A stretch of DNA of 64,000 nt. It comes from Pseudobutyrivibrio sp. YE44 (GTDB lineage Bacteria; Bacillota; Clostridia; Lachnospirales; Lachnospiraceae). A program made the position numbers and the translations under genes. The notes beneath the pieces are model-generated. The model did no database searches, had not been told where the DNA came from, and saw nothing but the letters and a program-made list of their open reading frames with translations. Position 1 is the first letter of the stretch, and the number at the start of each line of letters is the position of its first letter. The stretch spans positions 62,001 to 126,000 of the forward strand of contig NZ_FMXT01000003.1 of assembly GCF_900104335.1 (NCBI RefSeq), written 5' to 3'. Below are positions 7,417 to 36,599 of this stretch, in pieces.

Positions 7417-7572
7417 TCTTTATTTCTATATCAAAATTCAGAATATTTTGTGAATAGTTAAAAATCTTCCATAAATACTGTAAAATGGTAATAAGATACT
7501 ACGATATTCGGCAGGGGAACCCCCTTGGCGGATTATTTTGCTTATATTCTAAGGCGAAAAAGTGGGGAAGGT

Positions 7573-8940
7573 ATGAGAAAATACAAGTTCAAGTTGGTGG
7601 AGAATTACATAGCTTTGTTTAAAAAGCTGGTGGAGGCGATAGAGCTGGAATTGAAGGCTACAAACAGTGATTTTAACAAAACCAGCGAGTATCTTAATAC
7701 CTGCCAACAAAAGGCAATTGAACTTGGAGAATTCATAGAACAGCAGGAAGGCCTGGGCCACGCCACCGTTAAGGGGTTGGAGGATTTCTGCGAGCTGCTT
7801 TATGAAGTAAATGAAGATATTTTAAGTGAGCGAGGCCTGTCAGCAGATTCTGCCAAGCTTCGTCTAGGAAATGGAGTTAATAAAATTGAGGAAAGTGCTA
7901 AGTCAGATATAGAGATTCAGACACAAGTAGTTTTTTTGCCATATAAGGCCAGCATGTGGGATTCTCTGGAAACTGTGTGGAAAAGGCGAAGCCAGGAGCC
8001 GGGAACCCAAGCCTTGGTAATTCCTATTCCTTATTTTGACAGAAACGAAGATGGCTCTGTGAAGGAAATGCACTTTGAGGGCCTTGATTATCCAGAGGAT
8101 GTGCCTGTAGTGGACTTTCAGAAGTTTCAGTTTGAGGCAGAGCATCCTGACGAGGTGTACATTCACAATCCTTATGATGATTTGAACATTGTTACTTCCG
8201 TGCATCCTTACTTTTACAGTGAGAATATAAAAAAGTGGACGGATAAGCTGATTTATATTCCATATTTTGTGCTGGCGGACCCTGATCCTACAGATGAAAA
8301 AACGCTAGAGCATATTGCTGGATACGCATTATCAAAGGGAGTTGTTAATGCGGATGAGGTGATTGTCCAGTCGGAAAATATGAAGAAGGCATATGTGGAG
8401 GTGTTGACTCGCAGGTTTGGAGAGGATTCTCGTGAGACTTGGGAAAATAAAATCAAAGGAACAGGATCTCCAAAAATTGAAAAGCTTCTTGCCATGAAGG
8501 AGCAGGATATTCCTCTGCCGGATGATTGGCAGAAAGTGATTATGAAGCCTGATGGCACCAAGAAAAAGATAATCCTTTACAACACGAGTCTGGTTGCATT
8601 TCTTAATGCTGAAGAAAAGATGGTGACAAAGATAAAGGATGCTCTGCAAGTTTTCAAAGAAAACAAGGATGACGTGGCACTGCTTTGGAGACCACATCCT
8701 TTGACAATGGCAACCTTGGAAAGCATGATGCCAGATCTTTGTGAAGACTACAAGGCAATCGTTGAGGAATATAAAAAAGAAGGCTGGGGAATATATGATG
8801 ATTCGCCAGATATGGACAGGGCAATCATTGTCAGTGATGCCTATTACGGAGACGGCAGCAGCTTGGTGCAGCTATACGAGCTGTTGGAAAAACCAATAAT
8901 GATTCAAAATGCAGATGTTCTTTGCTGCGAGGAGGGCTAA
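7573..8940 (+). CDS. CDP-glycerol/ribitol phosphotransferase-like protein
   Basis: 455 residues from ATG 7573; an in-frame TTG at 7525 would add 16. I prefer ATG because GGGGAAGG sits just before it. Residues 1-120 are helical and unrecognised. The C-terminal part resembles TagB/TagF-type transferases that move glycerol- or ribitol-phosphate from the CDP carrier to a glycan: LLWRPHP near residue 378, and IIVSDAYYGDGSSLVQLYELL followed by KPIMIQ near the end, the S/GSS..YE...KP nucleotide-binding motif. The following three genes would make a CDP-pentitol, so this enzyme is likely the transferase that uses it. Acceptor is unknown. Confidence 0.7.
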   Translation: MRKYKFKLVENYIALFKKLVEAIELELKATNSDFNKTSEYLNTCQQKAIELGEFIEQQEGLGHATVKGLEDFCELLYEVNEDILSERGLSADSAKLRLGNGVNKIEESAKSDIEIQTQVVFLPYKASMWDSLETVWKRRSQEPGTQALVIPIPYFDRNEDGSVKEMHFEGLDYPEDVPVVDFQKFQFEAEHPDEVYIHNPYDDLNIVTSVHPYFYSENIKKWTDKLIYIPYFVLADPDPTDEKTLEHIAGYALSKGVVNADEVIVQSENMKKAYVEVLTRRFGEDSRETWENKIKGTGSPKIEKLLAMKEQDIPLPDDWQKVIMKPDGTKKKIILYNTSLVAFLNAEEKMVTKIKDALQVFKENKDDVALLWRPHPLTMATLESMMPDLCEDYKAIVEEYKKEGWGIYDDSPDMDRAIIVSDAYYGDGSSLVQLYELLEKPIMIQNADVLCCEEG

Positions 8941-9615
8941 ATGGGGGAGTTGATGGAGTATGAACTTAACGCATCTATGATGTGTGCCAACTATGGACAT
9001 TTGGCAAGAGAGGTGACAGAGCTGGAGGAGGCAGGAATTGATTCCTTCCACATCGACATTATGGATGGACGCTACGTGCCAAACTATGCCATGTCCCTAA
9101 ACGACATGAGCTATATTGCCAACACCACCTTCAAGCCGCTGGATGTACATTTGATGATTGAGCATCCAAGCAGTAATATCGAGCTTTTTATCAGGAATCT
9201 TCGTAAAGGAGATACTATTTATATTCATCCGGAGGCAGAATATCATCCTTCCACAACTCTGCAGAAGATTATTGATGCAGGTATGACGCCTGGAATCGCC
9301 ATCAATCCTGGCACCAGTGTGGAAACTGTCATGGAAATGCTGAGGATTGTGGATAAGGTTTTGGTAATGTCGGTTAATCCTGGAAATGCTGGCCAGATGT
9401 ATCTACCTTATGTTGGCAAGAAGGTGGAATATCTGATTGAGCTGAAGGAGAAGATGGGGTTCAAGCTATACTGGGATGGAGCTTGCTCGGCCAATAAAAT
9501 TCAGACCTATGGACCAATGGGAGTGGACGGTTTCGTGCTAGGAACCACGCTGCTGTTTGGACGGGGAAGAGAGTATAAGGATATTTTGAGGGATATAAGA
9601 GAGATGAGGTTTTAG
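8941..9615 (+). CDS. Ribulose-phosphate 3-epimerase family protein
   Basis: 224 residues with the TIM-barrel epimerase pattern. The metal ligands of the family are present: His37 and Asp39 in FHIDIMDG, His70 in VHLMIEHP, and an Asp in WDGACS. The usual DGHFVPN is DGRYVPN, and the VDGG loop is WDGACS, so it is a divergent member and probably not the housekeeping pentose-pathway enzyme. In this cassette it would supply ribulose 5-phosphate (or a related pentulose phosphate) to the reductase two genes down. ATG 8941 directly follows the upstream stop and has GAGGAGG 5 bases before it; ATG 8953 is an alternative. Confidence 0.78.
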   Translation: MGELMEYELNASMMCANYGHLAREVTELEEAGIDSFHIDIMDGRYVPNYAMSLNDMSYIANTTFKPLDVHLMIEHPSSNIELFIRNLRKGDTIYIHPEAEYHPSTTLQKIIDAGMTPGIAINPGTSVETVMEMLRIVDKVLVMSVNPGNAGQMYLPYVGKKVEYLIELKEKMGFKLYWDGACSANKIQTYGPMGVDGFVLGTTLLFGRGREYKDILRDIREMRF

Positions 9616-9616
9616 C

Positions 9617-10312
9617 GTGACGGTTGCTATTGTTCTTGCAGGTGGAAAAGGGGCCAGACTGGGGGCCAACGTGCCGAAGGCTTATGTGGAAGTTGTAGGT
9701 AAGCCTTTGATTGTGTATTGCCTTGAAACCTTGGAAAACAATGACTTGATTTCAGGTATACAAATTGTGGCTGAGGATACGTGGATTCCAGAAATTGAAG
9801 AGTGGCTTCGTAAATACGGATTGAGAAAAAAGCTGATGGGCTTTTCTGCTCCAGGGGAAAATAGGCAACTTTCTATTTTCAATGCCCTTATGGACTTGAA
9901 GGACAAGATTAGTGACGAGGATTATGTGTTTATTCATGACAGCGCCAGACCTCTTTTGTCAGATATGATGATTAAAAAATCTATTGCGGGAATGGAGGGT
10001 TATGATGGCGTGATTCCTGTGCTTCCAATGAAGGACACAGTGTATGTCAGCAGTGATGGCAAGCAGATTGATTCTCTTTTGAAGCGTCAGGAGATTTTCG
10101 CAGGCCAGGCACCAGAGACCTTTGTGTTTGGAAAATATTTGAAGGCAAATGAACAGGTGATGGCATCCGGAGAGATTGATGTGATAAATGGATCAACAGA
10201 GCCTGCGGTGAAGGCGGGTATGAAGATGCATTTGATTCCTGGAGATGAGAGGAATTTCAAGATTACTACCCAGGAGGACTTGGATAGGTTTACGGAGATG
10301 GTGAAGGGATAG
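9617..10312 (+). CDS. IspD/TarI-family cytidylyltransferase
   Basis: 231 residues with the nucleotidyltransferase fold. The CTP-binding loop IVLAGGKGARLGANVPKAY is at the N-terminus, HDSARPL near residue 113, and a central VIPVLPMKDTV. IspD and TarI have nearly the same signatures. Context favours a TarI-like role, making CDP-ribitol from ribitol 5-phosphate, because it lies between a pentulose-phosphate epimerase and a polyol-phosphate dehydrogenase next to a TagF-like transferase; no isoprenoid genes are near. GTG start at 9617, one base after the upstream stop. Confidence 0.75.
   Translation: MTVAIVLAGGKGARLGANVPKAYVEVVGKPLIVYCLETLENNDLISGIQIVAEDTWIPEIEEWLRKYGLRKKLMGFSAPGENRQLSIFNALMDLKDKISDEDYVFIHDSARPLLSDMMIKKSIAGMEGYDGVIPVLPMKDTVYVSSDGKQIDSLLKRQEIFAGQAPETFVFGKYLKANEQVMASGEIDVINGSTEPAVKAGMKMHLIPGDERNFKITTQEDLDRFTEMVKG
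9809..9818 (+). repeat. CGTAAATACG chromosomal 10-mer (first of eight)
   Basis: The 10-mer occurs at 9809, 10680, 34054, 35270, 38948, 40623, 55416 and 58518 (start positions). All are inside coding regions and all read CGTAAATACG on the + strand; the reverse form CGTATTTACG was not seen. Four are read as Arg-Lys-Tyr, three as Val-Asn-Thr, and one is antisense in a minus-strand histidine kinase gene, so protein conservation does not explain the word. It is an inverted repeat CGTA-AA-TACG, preceded by T or A in every case. Confidence 0.7.
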
Positions 10313-10391: not shown

Positions 10392-11471
10392 ATGAAGGGA
10401 TTGGTGTTAAGAGCTCCAGAGAAAATTGCAATAGAGGAAGTGGCTTGTCCGAAGCCTGGTGCAGATGAGGTGCTGGTGAAGGTGCAGGCTTGTGGAATCT
10501 GCGGCTCGGACATTCCAAGGGCCTATAGAGATGGGGCTCACAATATGCCTCTTATCATCGGACATGAGTTTGCAGGAGTGGTGGAAGCTGTTGGTTCAGA
10601 GGCTTCAGAAGCTTGGGTTGGAAAGCGTGTCGGTGTATTCCCTCTTATCCCCTGTATGAAATGCGTCTGCTGTAAAATTCGTAAATACGAAATGTGTTCG
10701 TCTTATTCTTATTTGGGAAGTCGTCGGGATGGAGGCTTTGCTGAATATGTGACTGTGCCTGAGTGGAACTTGATAGAGCTTCCTGATAAGGTGGACTTTG
10801 ATGCAGCAGCAATGCTGGAACCAATGGCCGTGGCAGTTCACGCTATCAGGCAGGCTTTCAGAACAAAGGGATATGATGTAGACGATGTGTCTGCGCTTGC
10901 GGATAAGAAGTTTGTGGTAGTGGGGCTTGGCACCATCGGTCTTTTGGTGGTAATGTTCCTAAAGGATTTAGGTTTTAAAAACGTATATACGATAGGAAAT
11001 AAAGAGCTGCAGAAGAAAATGGTTACAAGCCTTGGCGTGGATGAGGATGATTATTGTGATATAAATGTTTGGGATGAAATCGATTGGATAAGAGGAAACA
11101 CAGGTGTTAAAGGGGCCGACTTCTTATTTGAATGTGTCGGCAATAGCCGGTCGCTGGATGCGTGCATTTATGGAGCTACACCTGAAGGTGTTGTTTGCAC
11201 AGTTGGAAATCCTTCTGGGGACATGGACTTACACCGCCACGCATATTGGCAGATTCTTCGAAACCAGCTTACGTTAGTGGGCACCTGGAATTCATCCTTC
11301 ACACATGAAGCTGATGATGACTGGCATTATGTTTTGAAGCGATTGCAGCAGGGGGGCATTCATCCTGAGAAGCTAATAACTCATAGATTCACATTGGAGG
11401 ATATAGTGGAAGGCTTTGAGATTATGAGGGATAAGAAGGAAGCTTATGTGAAGGTGATGGCGGAGATGTAG
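10392..11471 (+). CDS. Zinc-dependent polyol-phosphate dehydrogenase (GatD/TarJ-like)
   Basis: 359-residue medium-chain dehydrogenase. Catalytic zinc ligands are Cys37 (CGICGSD) and His58-Glu59 (GHEF). Structural zinc Cys residues are at 88, 91, 94 and 102. The Rossmann motif is VVGLGTIGLL near residue 175. Sequence character is closest to galactitol-1-phosphate dehydrogenases (CGSDIPR...GAHNMPLI). In this cassette the likely reaction is NAD(P)H reduction of ribulose 5-phosphate to ribitol 5-phosphate, the TarJ step, but the exact polyol is inference. It starts 79 bases after the cytidylyltransferase with no terminator between. It contains one CGTAAATACG site (10680-10689). Confidence 0.78.
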   Translation: MKGLVLRAPEKIAIEEVACPKPGADEVLVKVQACGICGSDIPRAYRDGAHNMPLIIGHEFAGVVEAVGSEASEAWVGKRVGVFPLIPCMKCVCCKIRKYEMCSSYSYLGSRRDGGFAEYVTVPEWNLIELPDKVDFDAAAMLEPMAVAVHAIRQAFRTKGYDVDDVSALADKKFVVVGLGTIGLLVVMFLKDLGFKNVYTIGNKELQKKMVTSLGVDEDDYCDINVWDEIDWIRGNTGVKGADFLFECVGNSRSLDACIYGATPEGVVCTVGNPSGDMDLHRHAYWQILRNQLTLVGTWNSSFTHEADDDWHYVLKRLQQGGIHPEKLITHRFTLEDIVEGFEIMRDKKEAYVKVMAEM

Positions 11472-13750: not shown

Positions 13751-14182
13751 CTAAATATATTTCAAGAAAATTCGCAACATTCTGTGAAAACAGGAGTACT
13801 TTCCGACAAAATAGAGTAGAATAGTGACTAAGAACCTATGGTATTAGGTAGATGGTTCATCGCATCTTGATAAATAAATATAGAGGGCGCCAATTAAAAA
13901 ACTCCTTGAAATAATCCTTGGCAAGAAGTGCGAAAATTTATTTGCAATATGTCGAAAATGATTGCAATTAATTAGTAAACTGTTACAAAAGTGAAAATTA
14001 ATCGATTTTCAACACATTTTTTTAACAATTAGGGTTTAGTATAAGCATACTCACACCGATATAGACACTATAGGGGGTGAGTCGCGCGAAACTGAAACAA
14101 CTGAATAATATAAAATTGAATATTGGAAAACTGAATATCGAGGTAATGGAGAATTGTACAGAAAGATTTGGAGGGCTTAGAC
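13751..14182. other. Gene-free region before the surface-protein genes
   Basis: About 430 AT-rich bases with no convincing ORF. It contains a weak hairpin ACCTA/TAGGT near 13836, a T-run followed by AACAATTAGGG, and TATAAG near 14040 that could be a -10 element without a good -35. I infer that the promoter of the surface-protein genes lies here. Confidence 0.3.
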
Positions 14183-14710
14183 GTGTCAGATAATACAAAC
14201 AGCAAAGGAAGTAACAGTTTAAAGATTGCGATAGTAGTTGGAATAGTTGTTATAGTAGCTTTGCTGGGGGTGATTATCTTCCTGTTGGTAGGAAAAGACA
14301 AAGCGGAAGAGCCTGAAAAGAGGAATGTTGTAGTAACCCAAGACAATGTAGATGACGTTGTAGAAGAAATGACAATGGCGGATTATGTTGAACCTGGTTA
14401 TTATGACACACAAATGAGTACTACATGGACGTTTGCTACGGGATCCGACGTTTCGGAGGATGCATATGTTGCAAATGATGTTAGCAATACTAATGATGTG
14501 TACTTTGATGTGGTTATGGCAGACGATGAAAGCAATGTTATTTATAAGTCACCTGTCCTTCCAAGGGGAAGTGAGATAAAGACGATTGCTTTGGATACTC
14601 CATTAGACGCGGGTACTTACGATTGTGTTTGTATTTACCATCTTATTGATGAAGAACAAAAAACAGTAAGTACTTTGAGAATTGGTATTACTATTGTAGT
14701 AAACCAATAA
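14183..14710 (+). CDS. Single-pass membrane protein with extracellular beta domain
   Basis: 175 residues from GTG 14183, chosen because GGAGGG lies 7 bases upstream; the longer TTG start at 14168 would bury that site. Residues ~14-38 are one hydrophobic helix (IAIVVGIVVIVALLGVIIF), followed by a charged linker and an extracellular beta-rich domain of ~110 residues starting at GYYDTQMSTTWTF. Proteins of this type occur beside secreted surface proteins in Lachnospiraceae; function is not known to me. The following gene is the secreted surface protein, 81 bases away with no terminator, so they are likely co-expressed. Confidence 0.6.
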   Translation: MSDNTNSKGSNSLKIAIVVGIVVIVALLGVIIFLLVGKDKAEEPEKRNVVVTQDNVDDVVEEMTMADYVEPGYYDTQMSTTWTFATGSDVSEDAYVANDVSNTNDVYFDVVMADDESNVIYKSPVLPRGSEIKTIALDTPLDAGTYDCVCIYHLIDEEQKTVSTLRIGITIVVNQ

Positions 14711-14791
14711 GAATTATCATGGTAACAATTGTTTTACAAAACCCTTGCCACGGATGGTAGGGAAGATAAGTCTTTCAAGGAGGAAAAGCCC

Positions 14792-15901
14792 ATGAAATGT
14801 AAAAGAATTCTAGCAGTAGCAATGGCAACTACATTGGTGTTTGCTATGTCCATAACAGCATTTGCTGAGGACACAGAGCCTGTAACAACAGGTACAACAA
14901 CTGGTGCAGGTACATCTGAAGGTCACGTTAATCAGAAAAAGATTGACGTTATTTTACCTACAGAAGTAGCAGCTTCAACTTTTGCTTACACAATGGATCC
15001 TGAACGTTTGATTGCTACAACTAGCGGTGGAAAGTGGACAGCATCTTCATTCCCAACAGGAACAGATGATAAAGGTGTATATTTCGCAGTAGGAAAGGTT
15101 GGTGGAGATGGCGCAGATAAGGATAATACTAGATATGCGGCAACTTCAACAGAGCTTACAGTAACAAATAAGAGTAGCCATAAGATTAATCTTACAGTAA
15201 AGGCAGAGACAGTTGCAGGCGCTAAGGATATTCCATTAGTTGCAAAAGCAGATTTGACCGATCCTGAGGAAGCTGGATTATATCTAGGACTTATTGTAGG
15301 TTCTGAGACAGCAGTGGCTCTTTCTGAAACTGAAGCAGTTTCAAAAACAGTTGAGATTGCAGGTACTCCTGGAAATTATAAAATAGCACCAAAAGCAGAT
15401 AAGAGTGGTTATGAATATAGAGTATTGACACTAGCTGAGTATCAGACAAAGACAGATAATTCATCAGCTACTGAAGCTGATTTCTTAAATACTTGGGCAA
15501 AGACCACTTTTAAGCTTGAGGGCGAGACAACAACAGGTAAGGAGATTGAGTCAGATACAACAGCTCCTTCAATTAAGGTTACTTGGTCATATGAAGATCC
15601 AGAAGCTTCTACACCAGCTACAATCGAGTTGCTGACAGGTGGAGATGGTACAACTTACGTTGCAGCAGCACCAGAGGGTGGTTTTACAACTACATTAGAA
15701 GCTAGTAAGATTACAAGTGTAAAAGCTAACAATGTAGATGTAACTGCTAAGGCATCTATAGGTAGAAATATGATTATCGTTTCATGGCCAGATATAAAGA
15801 CTGCCTTAGATATTAGTTCATTTGCAGATATAGATGGTGGTAAGTTAAATATGGAATACGTATATGATGGCACTACATATAAGGGCACATATACACCATA
15901 A
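14792..15901 (+). CDS. Secreted surface protein, family shared with 44897-46399
   Basis: 369 residues from ATG 14792, which has AAGGAGG 8 bases upstream; an in-frame TTG at 14729 is ignored. A clear signal peptide (MKCKRILAVAMATTLVFAM ... AFA) is followed by a Thr-rich stretch and a beta-rich body. The body begins KKIDVILPTEVAASTFAYTMDPE, continues with LTVTNKSSHKINLTVKAE, and includes IKVTWSYE; the same landmarks in the same order occur in the protein at 44897-46399. No LPXTG, S-layer-homology or transmembrane anchor is seen, so it is exported but its attachment is unclear. Followed by a strong terminator. Confidence 0.65.
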   Translation: MKCKRILAVAMATTLVFAMSITAFAEDTEPVTTGTTTGAGTSEGHVNQKKIDVILPTEVAASTFAYTMDPERLIATTSGGKWTASSFPTGTDDKGVYFAVGKVGGDGADKDNTRYAATSTELTVTNKSSHKINLTVKAETVAGAKDIPLVAKADLTDPEEAGLYLGLIVGSETAVALSETEAVSKTVEIAGTPGNYKIAPKADKSGYEYRVLTLAEYQTKTDNSSATEADFLNTWAKTTFKLEGETTTGKEIESDTTAPSIKVTWSYEDPEASTPATIELLTGGDGTTYVAAAPEGGFTTTLEASKITSVKANNVDVTAKASIGRNMIIVSWPDIKTALDISSFADIDGGKLNMEYVYDGTTYKGTYTP

Positions 15902-15923
15902 TATAAAATAAAATAATAGTTTG

Positions 15924-15959
15924 GCCCCTAATTGGCGAAAGCCGATTAGGGGCTTTTTT
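15924..15959 (+). terminator. Strong intrinsic terminator/attenuator ahead of the glycan island
   Basis: A 13-bp stem, GCCCCTAATTGGC (15924-15936) with GCCGATTAGGGGC (15941-15953), loop GAAA, then six Ts. The SD of the next gene starts at 15962 and its start codon is 15974, so no promoter fits between. Confidence 0.9.
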
Positions 15960-15973
15960 GTGGAGGGATTATT

Positions 15974-17452
15974 TTGTCGAATTATCTGATGGATTATGTA
16001 TTTAATTCTAATAAAAATGATGAAACTTCAGCAATAGAAACAGAAAATAGAACTATTAAGTATGAAGAATTAATTAATTCGTCAAATGTTCTTGCTAAGT
16101 CGTTATCTGATTTAGATATATATAAGCGACCAGTTGTTCTTGTGATGGGAACAATAGAGAACTATCTCTTGGCTATCATGTCAGTTATTATAAGTGGAAA
16201 TTATTTTATATTAGTAGAAAAGAATACTCCTATAAATAGAACTATTAGTATTATAAGAAGTTTAGATAATCCTATTGTATTAGTAGATATTAGTTGCAAA
16301 AGCATAATGGAAAACTTGGGAGTAGAGTATGAGATATATGAAGAATTAATTGAAAGTAAAATGGATGGGAATTATGTTGAAAAAGAAACGTTAGGAGAAG
16401 ATATTTTTACCATCATATATACATCAGGAACGACAGGACATCCTAAGGGGGTTGTTATAAGTAATTATGCTATGGTGAGCAGAATTGCATCTATGAAAGA
16501 TAGCTGTAATTTTGAAGAAAGAATAATGGTTGTATCTGCATTTTCTACTATTCTATCGATAATGTCTTTTTTTTGTATATATAAAAGTCATGGAACTATT
16601 TCTATTATGAATGATAAAGGCGGTGGGCCAGCATCATTAGTGAGATTTATACAGGATAAACACCCAAGTATGTTAATTGGAACACCAAGTTGGATATATA
16701 TGTTCTTACAATACAGATTTATTGAGAAGTATAAAATTGACTCTCTGAAAAGAATTTGTCTAGCAGGCTCTGAATTGAAAAAAGATTTAGTAAAAAGATT
16801 AAAAGGAGAAATCCCTGATGTCGAGGTTATAAATTGGTATGGTGCAACAGAGACTGTTGGAGTAATAATTGGAATAAATATTAAGGAGACAAACATTGAT
16901 TCTGGAAGTATTCCAATTGGTACTCCCTATAAAAATGTGAAAATACATATAAGAGACGATGTTGCTAAAGAAGTTGAGAACGGAGAAATTGGCGAATTAT
17001 ATGTAGAGACAGATGGTTTATATAGTAATTATTTACCGGAAAGTGAAAACAGAAATATCATTTTTATGAAAAAGGATAACGGTTTTAGCTGTGAATATAG
17101 AACAGGGGATTTGGTAAAAAAAATAGGAGATACAATTTATTATATAGGAAGAATAGATAATCAAATAAAGCACAAAGGATACAGAATCGAGTTAGAGGAA
17201 ATTGACAAAATGGTTGAACAGGTAGAATGTGTCTATGAGGCTGCTACAGTATATTATGAAGATAGAATAATTGTATTTTTTGAGGGAGAGGTAGATGAAG
17301 GTTTTCTTGCTGATATTGTAAATGAGAAACTGCCTGTGTATATGAGACCATATGAGTACATAAGAATAAAAAAAATTATCCGAAATAATAATGGTAAAGT
17401 GGATAGAAAGCAATTGGTAGAATATTATTTGAGGGAAAGAGAAAGCGTGTAG
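15974..17452 (+). CDS. Free-standing adenylation enzyme (AMP-forming ligase, NRPS/DltA-like)
   Basis: 492 residues, the length of a stand-alone adenylation domain. Core motifs are present: IYTSGTTGHPKG near residue 149, WYGATET near 292, YRTGDLV near 377, GRIDNQIKHKGYRIELEEI near 395-412, and a terminal NNGKVDRKQL carrying the A10 lysine. Such enzymes activate an amino or carboxylic acid as the AMP ester and load it on a carrier protein thiol. The likely carrier is the 76-residue ACP two genes downstream. Substrate is unknown. TTG start 15974 has GGAGGG 6 bases before it. A strong terminator lies immediately upstream. Confidence 0.85.
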   Translation: MSNYLMDYVFNSNKNDETSAIETENRTIKYEELINSSNVLAKSLSDLDIYKRPVVLVMGTIENYLLAIMSVIISGNYFILVEKNTPINRTISIIRSLDNPIVLVDISCKSIMENLGVEYEIYEELIESKMDGNYVEKETLGEDIFTIIYTSGTTGHPKGVVISNYAMVSRIASMKDSCNFEERIMVVSAFSTILSIMSFFCIYKSHGTISIMNDKGGGPASLVRFIQDKHPSMLIGTPSWIYMFLQYRFIEKYKIDSLKRICLAGSELKKDLVKRLKGEIPDVEVINWYGATETVGVIIGINIKETNIDSGSIPIGTPYKNVKIHIRDDVAKEVENGEIGELYVETDGLYSNYLPESENRNIIFMKKDNGFSCEYRTGDLVKKIGDTIYYIGRIDNQIKHKGYRIELEEIDKMVEQVECVYEAATVYYEDRIIVFFEGEVDEGFLADIVNEKLPVYMRPYEYIRIKKIIRNNNGKVDRKQLVEYYLRERESV

Positions 17453-17454
17453 CT

Positions 17455-18528
17455 ATGAATTATTATACATGTGGTGCAAAGGTATATTCAAAAGAAAAAA
17501 AGGCATATGCAATTGCAAACTATAACGGTATTAAAGTTTTAAACGATGATGAGGAAACAATCTATATTGACCAAGACAATATAGATTTGAGTTATGCATA
17601 CTATAACATTTTACTGTACATGAATAAGTTTTTTTTTATACCATATAGAGCAGAAAAAATACTTATTGTAGATTGTGAAAAAAAAGAGATTAGAACAATC
17701 CATATATCATGTGATATTAGTCGAACGTCAAATAAGTGGTTTGCTACATCTTTTATATATGGTAATAAAATATACATGTTTGGAGATTCATTTCCAGGTA
17801 TACTAATTTTAAATGCAGCTACTGAAGAATATCAAATAAAAAAAGTAGAAGGTATTGATTATAGCAGGGGAAATCGTCGATTTTTTTCTTTTGGGTTTCA
17901 TATATGTGATAATAAGGCATTCGTTCCAATGGGGTATACGGGAGCGTTTCTAGAACTGTCATTACTTAATGACAGTTTTGAAATAAAAAAATTACCAATA
18001 AAGTTGGATGGTATAGAGTCATTTAGTCATATCGATGAATATTATTATGTATTGGGGCCTGAGGGAGACAAGAATAAAATAGTGAGAATACATAAAAATA
18101 CAGCCGTATGTGACGAGATATGCTTTTCAGAAATAGAAAATATGGACGGAAGAGTGTTTTATCCTCCCGTTATGTTTTGTGATGATATATATGTTTTTCC
18201 TAATCATGGAGAGAAGGCATATGTAATTAGTTTTTCAAATAATAAAATTGAGGAATTCAGTGCTTTTAACAGAAAGGTTTTACAAGGTGAACTGGGGGTG
18301 GATTGTGTTGAATTAGTAAATAACATATTGCGAGTTCAAACAAGAACAACATGTAGATGGATTGAATATGACATGAAGAAAAATGAAATAATATCTGAGC
18401 TAAAGCGTGAATTGCCAGAGGTGAATATAGCTAGATTAAAGAAAAGATTTTCTGAGTCATATATAGTATGTGAGTCTGATGGTAGTAGCTTGAATGACTT
18501 AGTATTGTTAATCAAAGATATTATCTAG
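17455..18528 (+). CDS. Predicted beta-propeller protein of unknown function
   Basis: 357 residues with repeated units of roughly 45-50 residues in which aromatic and Gly/Asn turns alternate with beta strands (for example IYMFGDSFPGILILN, AFVPMGYTGAFLELS, YYVLGPEGDKNKIVRI, IYVFPNHGEKAYVIS), a pattern typical of Kelch-like or related propellers. No signal peptide, so cytosolic. I cannot name a family. It begins 2 bases after the adenylation gene and 14 bases before the carrier protein, so it is tightly co-translated with them. A substrate-gating, scaffold or acyl-transfer role is possible but unproven. Confidence 0.55.
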   Translation: MNYYTCGAKVYSKEKKAYAIANYNGIKVLNDDEETIYIDQDNIDLSYAYYNILLYMNKFFFIPYRAEKILIVDCEKKEIRTIHISCDISRTSNKWFATSFIYGNKIYMFGDSFPGILILNAATEEYQIKKVEGIDYSRGNRRFFSFGFHICDNKAFVPMGYTGAFLELSLLNDSFEIKKLPIKLDGIESFSHIDEYYYVLGPEGDKNKIVRIHKNTAVCDEICFSEIENMDGRVFYPPVMFCDDIYVFPNHGEKAYVISFSNNKIEEFSAFNRKVLQGELGVDCVELVNNILRVQTRTTCRWIEYDMKKNEIISELKRELPEVNIARLKKRFSESYIVCESDGSSLNDLVLLIKDII

Positions 18529-18542
18529 ATGGAGGATTAGAT

Positions 18543-18773
18543 TTGGAAGAACGATTAATGGAATTATTAAAGCAGTTAAAGGGGAAGAATTTTGTTAAAG
18601 ATAATAATCTTATGACAGATGGCTATATTGATTCATTGGATATATTAGAATATGTGAAGTTGATAGAATCAGAGTATAAGATAAAAGTACCTATTGAGAA
18701 AATAGATATGTACCATTTTAATAGCTTACAATCAATTAAACAAGTAGTTATGGAGTGTAAACAAAATGATTAG
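18543..18773 (+). CDS. Acyl/peptidyl carrier protein
   Basis: 76 residues with the carrier motif TDGYIDSLDILEYV; Ser31 is the expected phosphopantetheine attachment site. A FNSLQSIKQVV helix closes the domain. TTG start with GGAGG 7 bases upstream. It overlaps the following DUF1919 gene by 8 bases. It sits outside any fatty-acid synthesis cluster, so it is the probable dedicated carrier for the adenylation enzyme at 15974, as DltC is for DltA. Confidence 0.85.
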   Translation: MEERLMELLKQLKGKNFVKDNNLMTDGYIDSLDILEYVKLIESEYKIKVPIEKIDMYHFNSLQSIKQVVMECKQND

Positions 18774-19713
18774 AGTGACAAATGACTGTAAGTCTTTTTT
18801 TGAAGAGGAACCGGGGAAAATATATATATATGGAGCTGGAAACGCAGGATTTTGGGTTGGTCATTACTTAACCAAGTGCAATATATCATATATAGGATAT
18901 ATTGACAAAAGACGTGAGGAACGAGATGTTCTTTACAATAACCATCCAGTATTTGAGGTAGGGGAACTTAATAATATTAAACATGAATCTATAAGGATGA
19001 TTATTACTCCATATGTATATAAAGAAATACTTGGTGAGTTATTATGGTATGATCATTTATTTGATATGGACATTATTTGTCTTATACCACGTTATAAGAG
19101 TATTAGTAGTAAAGACGACGTATACAATATCAATAAAATGCTTGGATACTTTCGGAGAACGCTTTTTAAAGGAGAGGTACCAACTATAATAACTAATACT
19201 TGTGTGGGAGGCCATATTTATGACGCATTAGGATTGCCGTTAGCGTCTCCAACAATAAATGTAAATATAGAAGGAGAAGACTACATAAAGTTAGTAAATA
19301 ATATAAGTTACTATTTTACTCAAGAATTAAAGTGTTACGGATGGATTAGAGAATGCAGATCAGATGGTATTGATACGCCACATATTATAGGAAAAGTAGG
19401 AGATATTACAATTAAAATTGGTCACACAGATACATTTGAGCAAGCTGAAAAAAGATGGAATTTAATGATTGAAAGGGTTAATTGGAATAGAATTGTATAT
19501 ATTATGGAGGAACAAAAATATAGGCCACCTATTAGTTTAAATGTATGTAAAAAATTTATGCAATTAGACGGGAAAAAGCTTCTTATCCTAACAAAAAAAT
19601 CTTTAAGTATAGGTGGCGAAGACATTATTTATGTTCCTGATGAGTATTTTATGGTTCGGGACGAGCCTGTACTAGAGAATTATTTTGATTTATTAGAGTG
19701 GATTAACATATAG
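18766..19713 (+). CDS. Rossmann module fused to DUF1919
   Basis: 315 residues. Residues ~16-110 form the island's recurring nucleotide-binding module (IYIYGAGNAGFWVGHYL, then YIGYIDKR). From ~140 to the end is a DUF1919-type domain: TNTCVGGHIYDALGLPLASPT, an ...IKIGHTDTFEQAEKRW segment and RVNWNRIVYIM. DUF1919 proteins occur in exopolysaccharide loci and are presumed transferases, with no mechanism I can cite. It overlaps the carrier protein gene by 8 bases, implying translational coupling and possibly a role in handling the carrier-bound group. Confidence 0.7.
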   Translation: MIRVTNDCKSFFEEEPGKIYIYGAGNAGFWVGHYLTKCNISYIGYIDKRREERDVLYNNHPVFEVGELNNIKHESIRMIITPYVYKEILGELLWYDHLFDMDIICLIPRYKSISSKDDVYNINKMLGYFRRTLFKGEVPTIITNTCVGGHIYDALGLPLASPTINVNIEGEDYIKLVNNISYYFTQELKCYGWIRECRSDGIDTPHIIGKVGDITIKIGHTDTFEQAEKRWNLMIERVNWNRIVYIMEEQKYRPPISLNVCKKFMQLDGKKLLILTKKSLSIGGEDIIYVPDEYFMVRDEPVLENYFDLLEWINI

Positions 19714-19734
19714 GATGAATATACGAGGGAACAT

Positions 19735-20988
19735 ATGAGAAAAAGTAATAACTTTGAGCGGTATGAGAGTGAATATATTCAAAGAAAAGATTGGGTGTTT
19801 CCGTATGATGATATAGAACCTGGTGCTAAAATAATTCTGTATGGAGCTGGTGATGTAGGCCAGGCATATTACTTTCAAATAATTAAGTCGGGATATTGTG
19901 AAGTTGTGTCATGGATAGATAAAGACTATAAAAAATACTCTGAGTGGGGATTAAACATTGAATCTATAAATGTATTCTTAGAAAAAGAATATGATTTGAT
20001 ATTATTAGCTGTAGCAAATCATTCAGTAGCGTGCGATATAAATAGTTTTTTATTAGAGCAGGGGGTCAAACAGGAGAAGATTGTTTGGGGAATCGGCTCA
20101 ACTTCTAAAATATTATATGACAAAGAAACATTCTTTATGACTAACCCAATAAAAGAAGAAATCAAAAATGTCTTACACTATAAAAAAATATCAAGTAAAT
20201 GCTTGCAAGGAATGAAGTATGTCGTCGATATATTGGAGAGAGCGAATAAGACGGGAATAGTGTTGCCGAGGGTAGTTATAGAAGCAACAACACATTGCAC
20301 TTTGAAATGTAAATACTGTAATAATCTTATGCCATATTATCAAAAGAAAAGGCATCTTGATTTAGATTCAATAGAGAAAGATATTGAACAACTTTTTTCT
20401 GTAGTTCAGCATATTTTGGTTCTTGAAATAATAGGTGGAGAGCCATTCTGTTACCCTCAATTATGTGATTTATTATTGTTTTTAGAGAGAATAGAACAGT
20501 ATGATATTTTAGAAATAACCACAAATGGTACTATCATTCCAAATAATAATGTGTTAGAGGCATTAAGAGATAAAAGAATTATTGTACGTATTAGTGAATA
20601 TAATGCCTCCGCAAAAATCGAAGGACTTATAAAAAAATTCAAGGAATATGGAATTAACTATGAAATATTAAATGATTTAATATGGATTGACTCAGGAGAA
20701 CCAGTTTATAAAGGAAAGTCGAAAGAATTGTGTCGAGAATCATATTTAAAATGTAGTTCCGCGAGGTTTTGCAAGACATTGATGGAGGGACGGTTATTTT
20801 GTTGCGCAAGAGCAGCATCTTTATTTGATTTAGGAATTTGTAAGGATGAATCGAATTATATAGATATTTATAAAGATGACGCTATTAGAGAATTAAGGGA
20901 TTTCTATTTGTCAGATTATGTAGAGGCTTGTAATTATTGTACAAACAGCGATGAGTGGAGGATTGTTGAGGCAGGAGTGCAGAGTTGA
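19735..20988 (+). CDS. Rossmann module fused to a radical SAM domain
   Basis: 417 residues. Residues ~30-120 carry the recurring module (IILYGAGDVGQAYYFQI ... WIDKDYKKY). The radical SAM domain has the [4Fe-4S] motif Cys188-x3-Cys192-x2-Cys195 (THCTLKCKYC) and an IIGGEPFCY motif near 237. The C-terminal part has many Cys residues (CRESYLKCSSARFC, LFCCARA, ACNYC), suggesting a SPASM-like auxiliary cluster. Enzymes of this type modify peptides, proteins or sugars by radical chemistry; substrate unknown. It closes the adenylation/carrier block, 21 bases after the DUF1919 gene. Confidence 0.75.
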   Translation: MRKSNNFERYESEYIQRKDWVFPYDDIEPGAKIILYGAGDVGQAYYFQIIKSGYCEVVSWIDKDYKKYSEWGLNIESINVFLEKEYDLILLAVANHSVACDINSFLLEQGVKQEKIVWGIGSTSKILYDKETFFMTNPIKEEIKNVLHYKKISSKCLQGMKYVVDILERANKTGIVLPRVVIEATTHCTLKCKYCNNLMPYYQKKRHLDLDSIEKDIEQLFSVVQHILVLEIIGGEPFCYPQLCDLLLFLERIEQYDILEITTNGTIIPNNNVLEALRDKRIIVRISEYNASAKIEGLIKKFKEYGINYEILNDLIWIDSGEPVYKGKSKELCRESYLKCSSARFCKTLMEGRLFCCARAASLFDLGICKDESNYIDIYKDDAIRELRDFYLSDYVEACNYCTNSDEWRIVEAGVQS

Positions 20989-23034: not shown

Positions 23035-24339
23035 ATGCTTTTTTCTATTATCATTCCTGTTTATAACTCAGAAAAATATATAAAAAAATGTTTAGAAAGT
23101 ATTATGAATCAGCCTTTTTCTGATTATGAATTAATAATAGTTGATGATGGCTCTACAGATGGATCTTTGAATATTATAAAAGCAACAATAACAGGAGATA
23201 TAAGAATAAAACTTTTGAAGAAATCGCATACTAATGCAGGAGATGCTAGAAATATGGCGTTAGAAGTTGCCGAGGGAGAGTGGCTAATATTTATAGATGC
23301 TGATGATTTTGTAGGTGAGAATTATCTGTATACAATAGCAGAAACGATAAGAAAAAAAGATTTTGATATTTTTGTATTTGGTGCAAATTATTATGATGAA
23401 AATAGCAGATTAACCTATCCGATACAGTGGGTATACCGAGAGGATTTACTGCCTAAATGCAATCCGTTTAATGCTAATGAATATGGAGATACGCTATTCC
23501 AAATGTTCTCAACTAACATTTGGAATAAGGTGGTGAAAAGGGATATTGTCATAAAAAATAGTATTAGATTTTCAAATTTAGATGATGCGAATGATGAATT
23601 GTTTGGTTGTATGATATTAGTACATTCTGAAAAAATTGCTTGTTCTGATGATGCTATATACAACTATCGTATTAATACTGGAATCAGTACACAGGATCGA
23701 GCAATGAATAAAACTAGCCTATGTTTTATTGAAGCCCTACGAGATATAAGGGAAAGCTTAGGCGTAGTACAGTTATTTGAAATTTTTAAAACAAGTTATT
23801 ATAACAAAGCAATAGTGGAATGTGTAAATGCTCTATTAAGGGAGAATACATGGAATACATATAAGCTCGTATATGATAATATAAGGTCTTTTTTGATAGA
23901 CGAATTGAAAGTTCCTGAAAAACATTATATTGGAGACGAGCATTATAGAAACTGGCTGAACTATATAAGGAAAAATACTGTAGAGGAGCTCATGTTTTAT
24001 TTTTATTCTCAGAATGATTGGAATGAAATAAAAATGAAAGATTGGAGGCTTCCATATGAACTGATAAAAGGAAAGAAAATTGTGCTGTTTGGTGCGGGAA
24101 ATATAGGCCAATCATTTTATATGCAGATTCAACGAACTAAGGGTGTTAAGCTTGTTAAATGGGTTGACTCAAATTTTGAAAAGTATAGAAAAATGGGACT
24201 AGATGTATTTGATATATCATCTATAGTAGATATTGAGTACGATGTCATACTTGTAGCTATAAACGGCGGTAAGGAGAATAGGGAATTAACAATAACTTTG
24301 AGTGAAATAGCAAATAGCAAAAGTATTATTTTCATATAG
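23035..24339 (+). CDS. Family 2 glycosyltransferase with C-terminal Rossmann module
   Basis: 434 residues. The N-terminal GT-A domain shows FSIIIPVYNSEKYIKKCLES, IVDDGSTDGS and the metal/sugar-nucleotide motif FIDADDF near residue 88. The C-terminal ~90 residues from ~345 form the recurring island module (IVLFGAGNIGQSFYMQI ... WVDSNFEKY). It transfers a sugar from a nucleotide donor in the cytosol; donor and acceptor are unknown. The C-terminal module is nearly the same as that at the N-terminus of the radical SAM protein at 19735. Confidence 0.85.
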   Translation: MLFSIIIPVYNSEKYIKKCLESIMNQPFSDYELIIVDDGSTDGSLNIIKATITGDIRIKLLKKSHTNAGDARNMALEVAEGEWLIFIDADDFVGENYLYTIAETIRKKDFDIFVFGANYYDENSRLTYPIQWVYREDLLPKCNPFNANEYGDTLFQMFSTNIWNKVVKRDIVIKNSIRFSNLDDANDELFGCMILVHSEKIACSDDAIYNYRINTGISTQDRAMNKTSLCFIEALRDIRESLGVVQLFEIFKTSYYNKAIVECVNALLRENTWNTYKLVYDNIRSFLIDELKVPEKHYIGDEHYRNWLNYIRKNTVEELMFYFYSQNDWNEIKMKDWRLPYELIKGKKIVLFGAGNIGQSFYMQIQRTKGVKLVKWVDSNFEKYRKMGLDVFDISSIVDIEYDVILVAINGGKENRELTITLSEIANSKSIIFI

Positions 24340-31437: not shown

Positions 31438-32739
31438 ATGAATATTACAATACTTGGGGCTGGTTTATCAGGAATTTCACTTGCGTATTTTTTGCAGGAC
31501 AGAGATGATATTGAACACATTGATATCATCGAAAAAGATGATGATATAGCAGGACTTTGTCGTAGTATTAGAAAAGATGGCTATACCTATGATATAGGTC
31601 CTCATATTCTTTTCTCGAAGGATAAAGAGATGCTAGAGCTTATGCTCTCTGTTCTTGATGCAAAAAATGATTTAAAACGCTCTAATCAGATTATCTACAA
31701 GGGCCGGTGGGTCCAATATCCATTTGAAAATGATTTGTCCAAATTACCAAAGGATGATTTGGATTATTGTGTCAGCATGTTTAAGGCTAATCCATATAGG
31801 GGATATGAGCCTAAGAACATGCTGCAATTCTTTTTAAAGACTTTTGGTGAAGGAATAACAAATACATATTTACGTCCGTACAATGAGAAGATTTGGAAGT
31901 ATGATCCATCCTTTATGGATACACAGATGGTGGAAAGAATACCTCAGCCTACCGATGAGGAAATAATGAGAAGTGCCTCTGGTGAGACAGTGGATGGTTA
32001 TGTTCATCAATTATATTTTCATTTCCCAAGTGAAGGTGGTATAGAAGCAGTGCCTAAAGGATTTGCAAGAAAGCTAACTGAGAAATGTACCATTCATTTA
32101 AATGAAGAAGTATCAGAAGTATGGAAAACAGAGGATGGAAGCTTTGGTATAAGAACTAATTCAGAGAACGAGTATGTATCTGATAGATTAATTTCCACAA
32201 TTCCAATACAGGCATTGAACACGGCATACAAAGCTGCTCCATCAAGTGTGGTAGAGCATGTCAACGACTTAAAATATAATTCAATAATTATTGCTTTTGT
32301 AAAAACTAAAGAAGATTTAAGTGGCGACAATTTTGCGTTTATGAATCCAGAAAAAGATATTATTTTTCACCGAATATCTAAGATGGATTTTCTAGGAGAT
32401 GCTTATAAATCAGACTCAGCAACATATATGGTGGAGGTCACCTATAGAAAAGGGGATTATACAGACCAACTTAATGAAGAAGAATTAAAACATAGAATTT
32501 CCGATGGTATGGTTCGTGTTGGATTTGCGAAAGAATTAGCAGATACAACCTTTATAAACATTACTAGGCATGAATATGCCTATGTGATTTATGACCTAAA
32601 GCATAAAGAGAACATGACAGCTATCAGAGATTACTACAAAGCTGAAGGAATAGATTTAAATGGTCGTTTCGGAAACTTTGAATATTGGAATATGGATAAG
32701 GTTTTGAGAGAAGCAAAGAATATGGCTGAATCCTTTTGA
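31438..32739 (+). CDS. FAD-dependent oxidoreductase, protoporphyrinogen oxidase/UGM-like
   Basis: 433 residues from ATG 31438 with GTGGGG upstream. The N-terminal dinucleotide motif is ITILGAGLSGISLAYFLQ followed by IIEKDDDIAGLCRSI, then YDIGPHILFSKD near residue 60, typical of amine-oxidase-fold enzymes related to UDP-galactopyranose mutase. A second FAD motif RLISTIPIQAL occurs near 252. In glycan loci such enzymes rearrange or oxidise nucleotide sugars. It is immediately upstream of the heptose genes and probably acts on a sugar nucleotide, but the substrate cannot be read from sequence. Confidence 0.75.
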   Translation: MNITILGAGLSGISLAYFLQDRDDIEHIDIIEKDDDIAGLCRSIRKDGYTYDIGPHILFSKDKEMLELMLSVLDAKNDLKRSNQIIYKGRWVQYPFENDLSKLPKDDLDYCVSMFKANPYRGYEPKNMLQFFLKTFGEGITNTYLRPYNEKIWKYDPSFMDTQMVERIPQPTDEEIMRSASGETVDGYVHQLYFHFPSEGGIEAVPKGFARKLTEKCTIHLNEEVSEVWKTEDGSFGIRTNSENEYVSDRLISTIPIQALNTAYKAAPSSVVEHVNDLKYNSIIIAFVKTKEDLSGDNFAFMNPEKDIIFHRISKMDFLGDAYKSDSATYMVEVTYRKGDYTDQLNEEELKHRISDGMVRVGFAKELADTTFINITRHEYAYVIYDLKHKENMTAIRDYYKAEGIDLNGRFGNFEYWNMDKVLREAKNMAESF

Positions 32740-32768
32740 TAGATACTTACCTGGGGAGGTATGAGCTA

Positions 32769-33752
32769 ATGATTATTACAAAAACACCTTTTAGAGTTAG
32801 CTTTTGTGGAGGAGGTAGTGATATTCCAAAATTTTATAGGGAGCATGGTGGATGCGTTCTTAGTACATCTATAAATAGGTATATGTATATATCCATTCAT
32901 CCCTATTTTGATGAGGAAAAAACTGCCCTTAAATATTCTCGCACAGAGATTGTTAATGATATAAGTGAAATCAAGCATACAATCTTTAAGGAAGTACTAG
33001 GAGATATGAACCTTAAGGGGATAGAGATAACTAGTACTGCCGATGTTCCAAGCGGTACTGGACTTGGCTCTTCCAGCACTTTCACAGTAGGTCTTTTAAA
33101 CACAATTTATTGTTACAAGGGTAAGTATGTGTCTAAGGGTAGAATAGCTGAAGAAGCATGTGATGTAGAAATCAATAAGTTGGGTAATCCTATTGGTAAG
33201 CAGGATCAATATGCAGCAGCATTCGGTGGATTGAATTTCATTGAATTTCATAAGGATGATACTGTTTCGGTAAGTCCGATTATCATGGAGCCAGAGACAA
33301 GTCAGGCACTACAAGACAATTTGATTATTCTTTACACGGGGTTAACACACGATGCTAATAAAATATTGGCAGAGCAAAAGAATAATATCTCACAGAAGGA
33401 TAAGACAGATAATCTGATTCATATGTGTGGTTTGGCTCATGCTATGAAAAAATCTCTTGAGAATAATGATTTATCAGATTTTGGGGCAATTCTTGATGAG
33501 GGTTGGAAAAAGAAACGAGAATTGGCAAGTGGAATAACAGATCCTCGTATTGATGAGATGTATGAGTGTGCCATGGCAAATGGTGCGTCTGGAGGAAAGC
33601 TTCTTGGTGCAGGAGGTGGAGGATTCCTGTTGTTCTATTGTGAAAAATATAGACAAAAGCACTTGCTGGAGGCATTGAACTTACGTAGGTTCCCTTGTGC
33701 TTTTGAACATGATGGAACATCTGTTGTATATATTGGAGATAAATACTGGTAA
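32769..33752 (+). CDS. hddA: D-glycero-D-manno-heptose 7-phosphate kinase
   Basis: 327 residues from ATG 32769 (SD GGGGAGGTATGAG region); ATG 32736 overlaps the previous gene and is not used. GHMP kinase motifs: TPFRVSFCGGGSDIPKFY at the N-terminus, the ATP loop PSGTGLGSSSTFTVGLL near 97, and GASGGKLLGAGGGGFLLFY near 278. CGGGSD..KFY with GNPIGKQDQYAAAFGG is characteristic of HddA-type kinases that phosphorylate C1 of heptose 7-phosphate. gmhA, a GmhB-type phosphatase and an HddC-type transferase follow in the same operon, which supports the call. Confidence 0.88.
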   Translation: MIITKTPFRVSFCGGGSDIPKFYREHGGCVLSTSINRYMYISIHPYFDEEKTALKYSRTEIVNDISEIKHTIFKEVLGDMNLKGIEITSTADVPSGTGLGSSSTFTVGLLNTIYCYKGKYVSKGRIAEEACDVEINKLGNPIGKQDQYAAAFGGLNFIEFHKDDTVSVSPIIMEPETSQALQDNLIILYTGLTHDANKILAEQKNNISQKDKTDNLIHMCGLAHAMKKSLENNDLSDFGAILDEGWKKKRELASGITDPRIDEMYECAMANGASGGKLLGAGGGGFLLFYCEKYRQKHLLEALNLRRFPCAFEHDGTSVVYIGDKYW

Positions 33753-33769
33753 TTTGGGAGAGTGTTATT

Positions 33770-34708: not shown

Positions 34709-34709
34709 T

Positions 34710-36023: not shown

Positions 36024-36026
36024 GAG

Positions 36027-36599
36027 ATGACTGATTACAAGGCTCAAATCAAGCAGTATATAGACATGGAAAAGCAGGTATTGGACAACCTGGATGGAGA
36101 AGAAATAAATGAGGTGATGAATGTCCTTGAGAATGCAAGGTTAAAGGGGAAGCGAGTTTTTATTTGTGGAAACGGTGGAAGTGCTTCAACTGCAGCGCAC
36201 TTAGAATGTGATTTCAATAAAGGTATAAGTTATGACCAAACAGTTAAGTATGATATTGAATGTTTGAGTGATAATGTTCCTATGCTTATGGCTATTGCCA
36301 ATGATATTGGATACGATGATATTTTTGTTGTTCCACTCCGAAATAAGTTGAAGTTAGGCGATATTGTAATAGGAATCTCTGGTAGTGGTAATTCCACTAA
36401 TGTTATTAAAGCTTTTGAATATGCCAACAGTATAGGAGCGGATACTATAGCACTAACAGGTTATAGCGGTGGTAAGCTGAAAGAGATATCAAAATACAAT
36501 ATACATGTTAATATCGATAATATGCAGATAGTTGAGGATATACATCTTGTGTTAAACCATATGATGATGTTCATTTTGTCGGGAATGAAAGGATGCTAA
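36027..36599 (+). CDS. gmhA: Sedoheptulose 7-phosphate isomerase
   Basis: 190 residues, the usual GmhA length. The SIS fold motifs are FICGNGGSASTAAHLECDFNK near residue 46 and VIGISGSGNSTNVIKAFEYA near 112. GmhA converts sedoheptulose 7-phosphate to D-glycero-D-manno-heptose 7-phosphate, the entry step of heptose nucleotide synthesis. It is 3 bases after the HddC-GmhB fusion. With hddA and the fusion this gives the full GDP-D-glycero-alpha-D-manno-heptose route known from S-layer glycoprotein synthesis in Gram-positive bacteria. Confidence 0.9.
   Translation: MTDYKAQIKQYIDMEKQVLDNLDGEEINEVMNVLENARLKGKRVFICGNGGSASTAAHLECDFNKGISYDQTVKYDIECLSDNVPMLMAIANDIGYDDIFVVPLRNKLKLGDIVIGISGSGNSTNVIKAFEYANSIGADTIALTGYSGGKLKEISKYNIHVNIDNMQIVEDIHLVLNHMMMFILSGMKGC

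Follow-up and report, generated by a model that had tools for sequence, protein, structure and literature searches.

The locus occupies positions 15974..20988 (+) of a 64,000-nucleotide stretch of the Pseudobutyrivibrio sp. YE44 genome (the window) and consists of five tightly packed genes: a stand-alone adenylation enzyme of the AMP-binding type (15974..17452, +), a beta-propeller protein (17455..18528, +), an acyl/peptidyl carrier protein (18543..18773, +), a protein joining a Rossmann module to DUF1919 (18766..19713, +) and a protein joining a Rossmann module to a radical SAM domain (19735..20988, +). The positions and spacings given in the initial annotation (2, 14, -8 and 21 bases) were confirmed in the sequence. 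Directly 5' of the block lies an intrinsic-terminator-like hairpin (15923..15954, +), whose stem is identical in a second species that carries the same genes.

The initial annotation had linked the block to a surface glycan, and our scan of the window proteins agrees, revealing an island of Rossmann-bearing glycosyltransferases together with CDP-ribitol-type and heptose-type genes. In 2-kb steps, the GC content is 30-38% from 12 to 44 kb of the window and 38.5-43% outside, with 30-31% over the block itself; the block is probably a variable, laterally acquired cassette of this island. Upstream are a small protein with one hydrophobic span (14168..14710, +) and a secreted surface protein with a signal peptide (14729..15901, +), both features recognized by eye, which form a pair that recurs beside such islands. 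The CDP-ribitol-type genes end 4.5 kb upstream of the block and include an IspD/TarI-type cytidylyltransferase (9617..10312, +), which scores under the curated NCBIfam cut-offs, a zinc alcohol dehydrogenase that would be TarJ-like by its position (10392..11471, +) and, as a putative member of the set, a ribulose-phosphate 3-epimerase family protein (8941..9615, +). Next to them, a TagF-like protein (7525..8940, +; hereafter 7525) is a predicted CDP-polyol phosphotransferase and scores 19.8 against PF04464, slightly below the cut-off of 22.1. On the other side of the block, a glycosyltransferase 2 protein (23035..24339, +) has a C-terminal Rossmann module resembling the N-terminus of the radical SAM protein, in line with the shared module that had been proposed. 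The epimerase-family SDR encoded at 33770 more likely acts on sugars than as a ketoreductase accompanying the adenylation enzyme.

Propeller, DUF1919 and radical SAM proteins

All three of these assignments, made initially from sequence alone, are supported. The propeller fold is backed by a predicted structure, and a profile search showed the protein to be homologous to the fused C-terminal domain of 7525-type phosphotransferases. The propeller profile matched nine large proteins, eight of which have a long upstream match to 7525 (36-47% identity); in the ninth (L159), the upstream match covers 44 residues only. Cytidylyltransferase genes adjoin two of the fused proteins (L151, L169) and lie one gene away from a third (L150). 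The family is not confined to this block: a four-row profile found matches at E <= 1e-5 in 35 of 392 genomes of the order, the source genome included, while a single-sequence search found it in 3 of 250 family genomes, again counting its own. There was no match on plasmids, and our literature search returned no propeller tied to polyol-phosphate transfer.

The DUF1919 protein scores above the cut-off of PF08942 and matches, over most of its length, the solved structure 2g6t, which likewise combines a Rossmann module with DUF1919, is titled uncharacterised and presumably belongs to a family named CAC2185, as Pfam's C2185-like_N suggests. Cys146 and His220 are invariant in all 12 aligned proteins and have counterparts in 2g6t. 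The domain occurs in 11 of 200 family genomes and in 2 of the 398 genomes of a phylum sample, both counts including the source genome, and in one locus (L084) it is fused to a glycosyltransferase. Within the genus, five genomes have DUF1919, counting a gene whose frame is broken (L214); in four of the five, a propeller gene or domain is nearby, either overlapping it, separated from it by the carrier gene or lying about 0.8 kb off. In seven of the eight other family loci covered (L080-L087), DUF1919 is present without an adenylation-enzyme or carrier match in the surrounding stretch, so it need not use the carrier. In the portions of the literature consulted, DUF1919 appears in one exopolysaccharide locus, one capsule locus and one gene list of a plasmid, without an experimentally tested function.

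The radical SAM protein carries the CX3CX2C motif as CTLKCKYC (C188, C192, C195) and scores 42.3 bits against PF04055 (cut-off 29.5). Its C-terminal cysteines (333, 340, 346, 356, 357, 369, 399 and 402) appear twitch-like by eye, with 27.3 bits against the N_Twi_rSAM model (cut-off 170), and its nearest solved relative is 7wzv, with two sister entries. At E <= 1e-25, relatives were found in 5 of 219 other family genomes. One relative (L229) lies between two MBOAT genes; another (L231) is one gene apart from a propeller, with no adenylation-enzyme or DUF1919 match there, which means that the block does not have to be a single pathway.

Of 28 other genus genomes, only one, from a second species, has the identical five-gene order, and the remaining samples searched gave no further case. 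The initial annotation had made its proposal depend on this order being conserved elsewhere; since one other species keeps it, the proposal is not overturned on this count, but the spread is very narrow. Between the two species, the five genes show 73-96% identity and dN/dS of 0.13-0.35, and, judged from this comparison, they are under purifying selection in both. The dS values range from 0.16 to 0.49, so divergence is unequal between genes.

It is conceivable, if rather unlikely, that these are neighbours and not one pathway, with the adenylation enzyme and carrier supplying an acyl donor to some other transferase, the propeller serving 7525, and the DUF1919 and radical SAM proteins separately modifying sugars. 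The propeller, DUF1919 and the radical SAM relatives do recur without the others at the frequencies given above, and the L231 and L229 arrangements point the same way. However, the tight packing and the exact order kept in two species despite such unequal divergence argue against this reading.

Adenylation enzyme and carrier compared with known systems

The profile matches and motifs bear out a stand-alone adenylation enzyme, accompanied by a putative carrier of its own. The enzyme scores 157.1 bits against PF00501 (cut-off 29.9), and its core motifs are intact (YTSGTTG, NWYGATE, YRTGDL and NGKVDR, with K475 as the A10 lysine). The carrier has Ser31 in a DSL motif and scores 18.3 bits against PF00550, below the cut-off of 20.8; it reaches 26.4 bits against the DltC model (cut-off 68) and a higher 29.8 bits against the AsbD model (cut-off 100). 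An ACPS-family gene is present in the genome.

The pocket of the adenylation enzyme reads I-L-M-I-C-A-W-G-V. Ile193 takes the position of Asp235 in both species, while Asp stands there in 50 of 75 homologues, a set that leaves out ORFs of <380 or >=720 codons, matches above E 1e-30 and copies sharing their last 300 residues; within it, the block-type pocket is found only in these two species' enzymes. The DltA-type pocket for D-alanine has Asp at 235 and Cys at the 301 position, the latter replaced here by Ala. The pocket thus argues, at the sequence level, against D-alanine and, without the Asp to hold an alpha-amino group, makes any alpha-amino acid unlikely. Of the amino or carboxylic acid originally envisaged, an acid without an alpha-amino group is the part that stands. 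Close relatives of the enzyme are confined to the genus, with no near relative in 298 other family genomes, so this substrate class rests on few pocket residues. In the parts of the source available, an aliphatic residue at 235 is described as typical of keto-acid adenylation domains (PMC10949194); Ile193 agrees with this rule, which alone is insufficient for membership, and neither the adenylation enzyme nor the carrier contains a ketoreductase domain.

Among the nearest described systems is Dlt (DltA/DltC/DltB/DltD), which shares a stand-alone adenylation enzyme and a dedicated small carrier, here with CDP-ribitol-type genes nearby. A second Dlt-type route, in which the pair loads D-alanine or another amino acid that a chromosomal MBOAT/DltD-like pair attaches to a ribitol-phosphate polymer, would draw on this proximity, on the strong match to the DltA model TIGR01734 (4e-65; 220 bits, cut-off 560) and on MBOAT and DltD-like genes recognized by eye on contig C14 of the same genome. 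However, that set already has its own adjoining adenylation enzyme and carrier, and the Ile and Ala replacements in the pocket further make such a route improbable. Membership in Dlt itself was rejected because the pocket residues differ and, as the initial annotation had observed for DltB and DltD, the partners are missing: no MBOAT or DltD match occurs among the 40 window proteins scanned. The block also differs in its additional DUF1919, radical SAM and propeller genes, and its adenylation enzyme is only ~31% identical to a DltA-like enzyme (L052).

Nor is the pair a one-off in the genus. Other Pseudobutyrivibrio glycan islands contain adenylation enzyme and carrier modules of two types, accompanied by a ~358-aa protein and an AAC(3)-family protein (type I) or by a PLP decarboxylase-family protein (type II), with the Pfam names of these partners tested on L078 proteins only. 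Their pocket codes differ from that of the block (DLMVLCTVA; IARGCSQAS or IARCLSQAS), and no DUF1919 or radical SAM match lies <=5 genes away. The type I ~358-aa proteins equal the propeller in length, but homology is unsupported, with no profile match to the window propeller. No block partners were found beside the other 18 adenylation-enzyme relatives from the genome-collection scan.

Carrier-bound molecules and peptides are frequent substrates for tailoring by radical SAM enzymes, and the best sequence matches of the adenylation enzyme are NRPS adenylation domains and DltA; a small secreted metabolite or signal made in NRPS-like fashion is nevertheless very unlikely as the product in place of a glycan substituent, given that the 40 window proteins scanned include no condensation or thioesterase domain and that glycosyltransferases and sugar-nucleotide genes abound in the island.

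Proposed role in surface-glycan modification

A further comparison is offered by the flagellin loci of Clostridioides difficile, where, in the portions of the reports consulted, the authors propose that a TagF-like phosphotransferase works on a glycan linked to protein (Type A) and an amino-acid-type cap is described on a surface-protein glycan (Type B) (PMC10714395, PMC5207245, PMC5207246). Both the TagF-like enzyme and the capped glycan resemble what the island suggests. The difference is that those loci rely on CDP-threonine (as proposed) or on genes of the ATP-grasp and FemAB types, and that the genes named in those portions include no pair of adenylation enzyme and carrier.

Our preferred interpretation, held tentatively, is that the block may well be an acid-activation variant of clostridial surface-glycan cassettes. 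With its motifs intact, the adenylation enzyme would activate a small carboxylic acid without an alpha-amino group (a keto, hydroxy or simple short acid) and load it as a thioester on the block's own carrier. The DUF1919 protein, through its invariant Cys and His, or another enzyme of the island might then move the acyl group to the glycan; homology identified no acyltransferase. The propeller could act as a detached partner domain of the 7525 polyol-phosphate transferase, uniting the modification with a ribitol-phosphate-type glycan, and the radical SAM enzyme may oxidise, deoxygenate or epimerise either the sugar or the acyl moiety. Together these steps would yield an acylated glycan bearing polyol phosphate, possibly carried by the adjacent surface protein.

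A more specific and speculative version, which we regard as a long shot, is carrier-dependent acylation of polyol-phosphate glycans on a surface protein, with a non-amino acid loaded by the adenylation enzyme, DUF1919 as a cysteine-dependent carrier-to-glycan acyltransferase, the propeller providing the docking half of a TagF-like enzyme split in two, and tailoring of the substituent by the radical SAM enzyme.

The initial annotation knew of no described system of this make-up and offered it as a candidate new one. To call it wholly new is too strong, because the adenylation enzyme and carrier modules (already within the genus), the propeller, DUF1919 and the radical SAM enzyme each occur again in further glycan loci. 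Every part is of a known kind; our literature search found no description of their combination or its chemistry.

The locus offers testable handles on two families of no known function: DUF1919, structurally solved and uncharacterised, and the propeller family, whose fusion points toward polyol-phosphate transfer. Carrier-to-glycan acyl transfer, if true, would be the first function for the DUF1919 family, and a keto or hydroxy acid, if that is what is loaded, would make an unusual substituent, borne by a carrier, for the surface glycan of a Gram-positive bacterium. These findings suggest that the surface-glycan islands of gut and rumen Lachnospiraceae may carry exchangeable acid-activation cassettes beyond Dlt.

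Conservation of the five-gene block

The block comprises five + strand genes (15974..20988) for a stand-alone adenylation enzyme (15974..17452), a 357-aa propeller protein, a carrier protein, a DUF1919 protein and a radical SAM protein (19735..20988). Their tight packing, described in the initial annotation, was confirmed, with gaps of 2, 14, -8 and 21 bases and no inner stops. Pfam searches returned AMP-binding, DUF1919 and Radical_SAM, a sub-threshold carrier match, and no family over cut-off for the 357-aa protein. The proposed search for this gene order elsewhere recovered all five genes, identically ordered, in a second genome of the genus (G322, stretch L073), with identities of 73-74% for the adenylation enzyme, 73% for the propeller, 87% for the carrier, 96% for DUF1919 and 86% for the radical SAM protein. 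The block also lies on a genome-collection contig (L088) labelled uncultured Pseudobutyrivibrio sp.; L088 and G322 were taken as one genome and counted once.

Between the window and G322, the block genes have dN/dS values of 0.13-0.35 and lack inner stops in both species. Their dS is 0.16-0.49, compared with 0.67-1.53 in four upstream core genes, and their GC content is 26-32% versus 42-46%. Such values fit a cassette that has moved laterally or recombines and has been kept functional.

Adenylation enzyme matches (E <= 1e-30) occur in 28 of 29 genus genomes, own included, and among the others in this set G322 alone has a near relative (73%). At E <= 1e-40, matches were obtained in 71 of the 299 family genomes (own included), with at most 33% identity to the window enzyme among the matches listed, own gene aside. 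The surroundings of 18 family enzymes were checked by BLAST; in all four of the stretches gone through gene by gene, as far as their genes were listed, MBOAT and DltD-like genes were recognized by eye nearby. The genome collection yielded 19 relatives, L088 at 73% and the other 18 at 22-29%, and around these 18 BLAST detected no counterpart of the window's propeller, DUF1919 or radical SAM protein.

Predicted acid activation and related modules

The window adenylation enzyme retains its core motifs and K475. Among 75 adenylation enzymes aligned from the fetched loci, the residue at position 235 (GrsA numbering) is most often Asp (50); Ile and Ser each occupy it in 10, Val in 3, and Asn and Thr in 1 each, and the pocket code ILMICAWGV is found in the window and G322 only. 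A domains for alpha-amino acids are described as strongly conserving Asp235 (PMC11355689), and an aliphatic residue there as typical of keto-acid A domains, with one exception that retains Asp (PMC10949194). The predicted substrate class is a non-alpha-amino acid. The genome's second adenylation enzyme, on contig C14, carries a pocket code that is frequent in the genus, DAKCAGLGM; genes for a carrier, an MBOAT protein and a DltD-like protein accompany it (by eye).

Adenylation enzyme and carrier modules also occur in glycan loci of seven other genus genomes (G153, G299, G303, G304, G305, G320 and G325), near an AAC(3)-like or PLP decarboxylase-like gene (L078 2946-6751 and 8990-12142; also L107-L112 and L114); these family names come from tests on the L078 proteins and were extended to other loci by likeness. 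One kind joins a DltA-like enzyme to a protein of ~358 aa and one of the AAC(3) family; in the other, the partner is of the PLP decarboxylase family and the pocket code is IARGCSQAS. The AAC(3)-like gene that follows the carrier in related modules makes a transferase slot plausible; in the window block DUF1919 holds that position, an analogy of position only.

The radical SAM protein combines a Rossmann module, CX3CX2C and C-terminal cysteines, with relatives (E <= 1e-25) in 5 of 219 other family genomes. One relative lies a single gene from a propeller, near genes judged heptose-type by eye (L231), and another is flanked by two MBOAT genes (L229); none of the six stretches fetched around these relatives has an adenylation enzyme or DUF1919 match. 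Separately, the reading frame of a DUF1919 gene in L214 (7745-8746), shortly after a phosphotransferase-propeller fusion, is broken.

The propeller and TagF-like transferases

The AlphaFold2 model of the propeller (15-row alignment; pLDDT 77.7) has about seven blades, and its top Foldseek matches are WD40-, kelch- and BamB-type propellers, which point to a fold, not a function. A search of 392 genomes of the order found the family in 35, the own genome among them.

The strongest functional link for any block member of previously unknown function is the fusion of propellers to relatives of the TagF-like (CDP-polyol phosphotransferase-like) gene at 7525..8940. Eight large proteins in the loci examined carry a region 36-47% identical to it over 336-464 residues, followed by a propeller-profile match (L150 7489-9981, L151 3020-5545, L154 8447-10744, L155 8067-10574, L158 7903-10437, L161 3406-5619, L162 8653-11166 and L169 8249-10741). 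The alignment runs to residue 465-466 of the window protein's 471, and the propeller part of the eight starts at that point; a ninth large propeller-matching protein (L159) matches over 44 residues only. Among 29 genus genomes, 28 have the TagF-like gene. In seven of these an open frame spans 848-908 codons, the size expected of a fusion, and for G305 (L214), one of this group, the fusion was directly observed. In L169 and L151 a cytidylyltransferase-family gene adjoins the fused gene, and in L150 and L214 it is one gene off. Our literature search found no description of this combination. TagF-like transferases occur alone, as in the window, or propeller-fused, with TagD- or TarI-type genes nearby in some loci.

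The surrounding glycan island

Upstream of the block, the TagF-like gene (19.8 bits against a PF04464 cut-off of 22.1) is accompanied by family-model matches to ribulose-phosphate epimerase, IspD/TarI-type cytidylyltransferase and zinc dehydrogenase. This set scores below the cut-offs of curated equivalogs, so CDP-ribitol synthesis is a putative assignment. Ten other genus stretches (L218-L227) have the four genes in the same order; the genes after the dehydrogenase differ, with several in common between L222 and L226. Downstream lie glycosyltransferases, several bearing Rossmann modules, and GDP-heptose-synthesis-like genes (HddA-, GmhA- and GmhB/HddC-like; 32736-36599) scoring below most curated cut-offs. 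The latter sit in a Gram-positive glycan island, and similar genes were seen by eye in L231. GC content is low over ~12-44 kb, with a single 2-kb step reaching 38%.

Just before the block, a surface-protein pair (14168-15901) encodes a small protein with a hydrophobic span and a larger secreted protein, both features read by eye. The pair recurs in G322 (L073 7566-9307), in two more genus genomes (L221 9936-11645 and L227 389-2143) and, outside the genus in the same family, beside a propeller gene (L156 10387-12023); in L161 the small member is recognizable near the phosphotransferase-propeller fusion. Four genomes of the genus, and one from another genus, have the pair alongside glycan islands. 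A strong terminator-like hairpin (15923-15954; 14 pairs and a T-run), with an identical stem in G322, separates the pair from the block, whose expression must then depend on read-through or an unseen promoter. The hairpin may control how much surface protein is made relative to the modifying enzymes.

The initial annotation, which put the block forward as a candidate new system, is borne out in its observation and partly supported in its interpretation: the block is genuine and rare, but as a variant of a kind that recurs. The transfer step and the radical chemistry are proposed roles. The block belongs to a recurrent kind, the acid-activation cassettes of clostridial surface-glycan islands.
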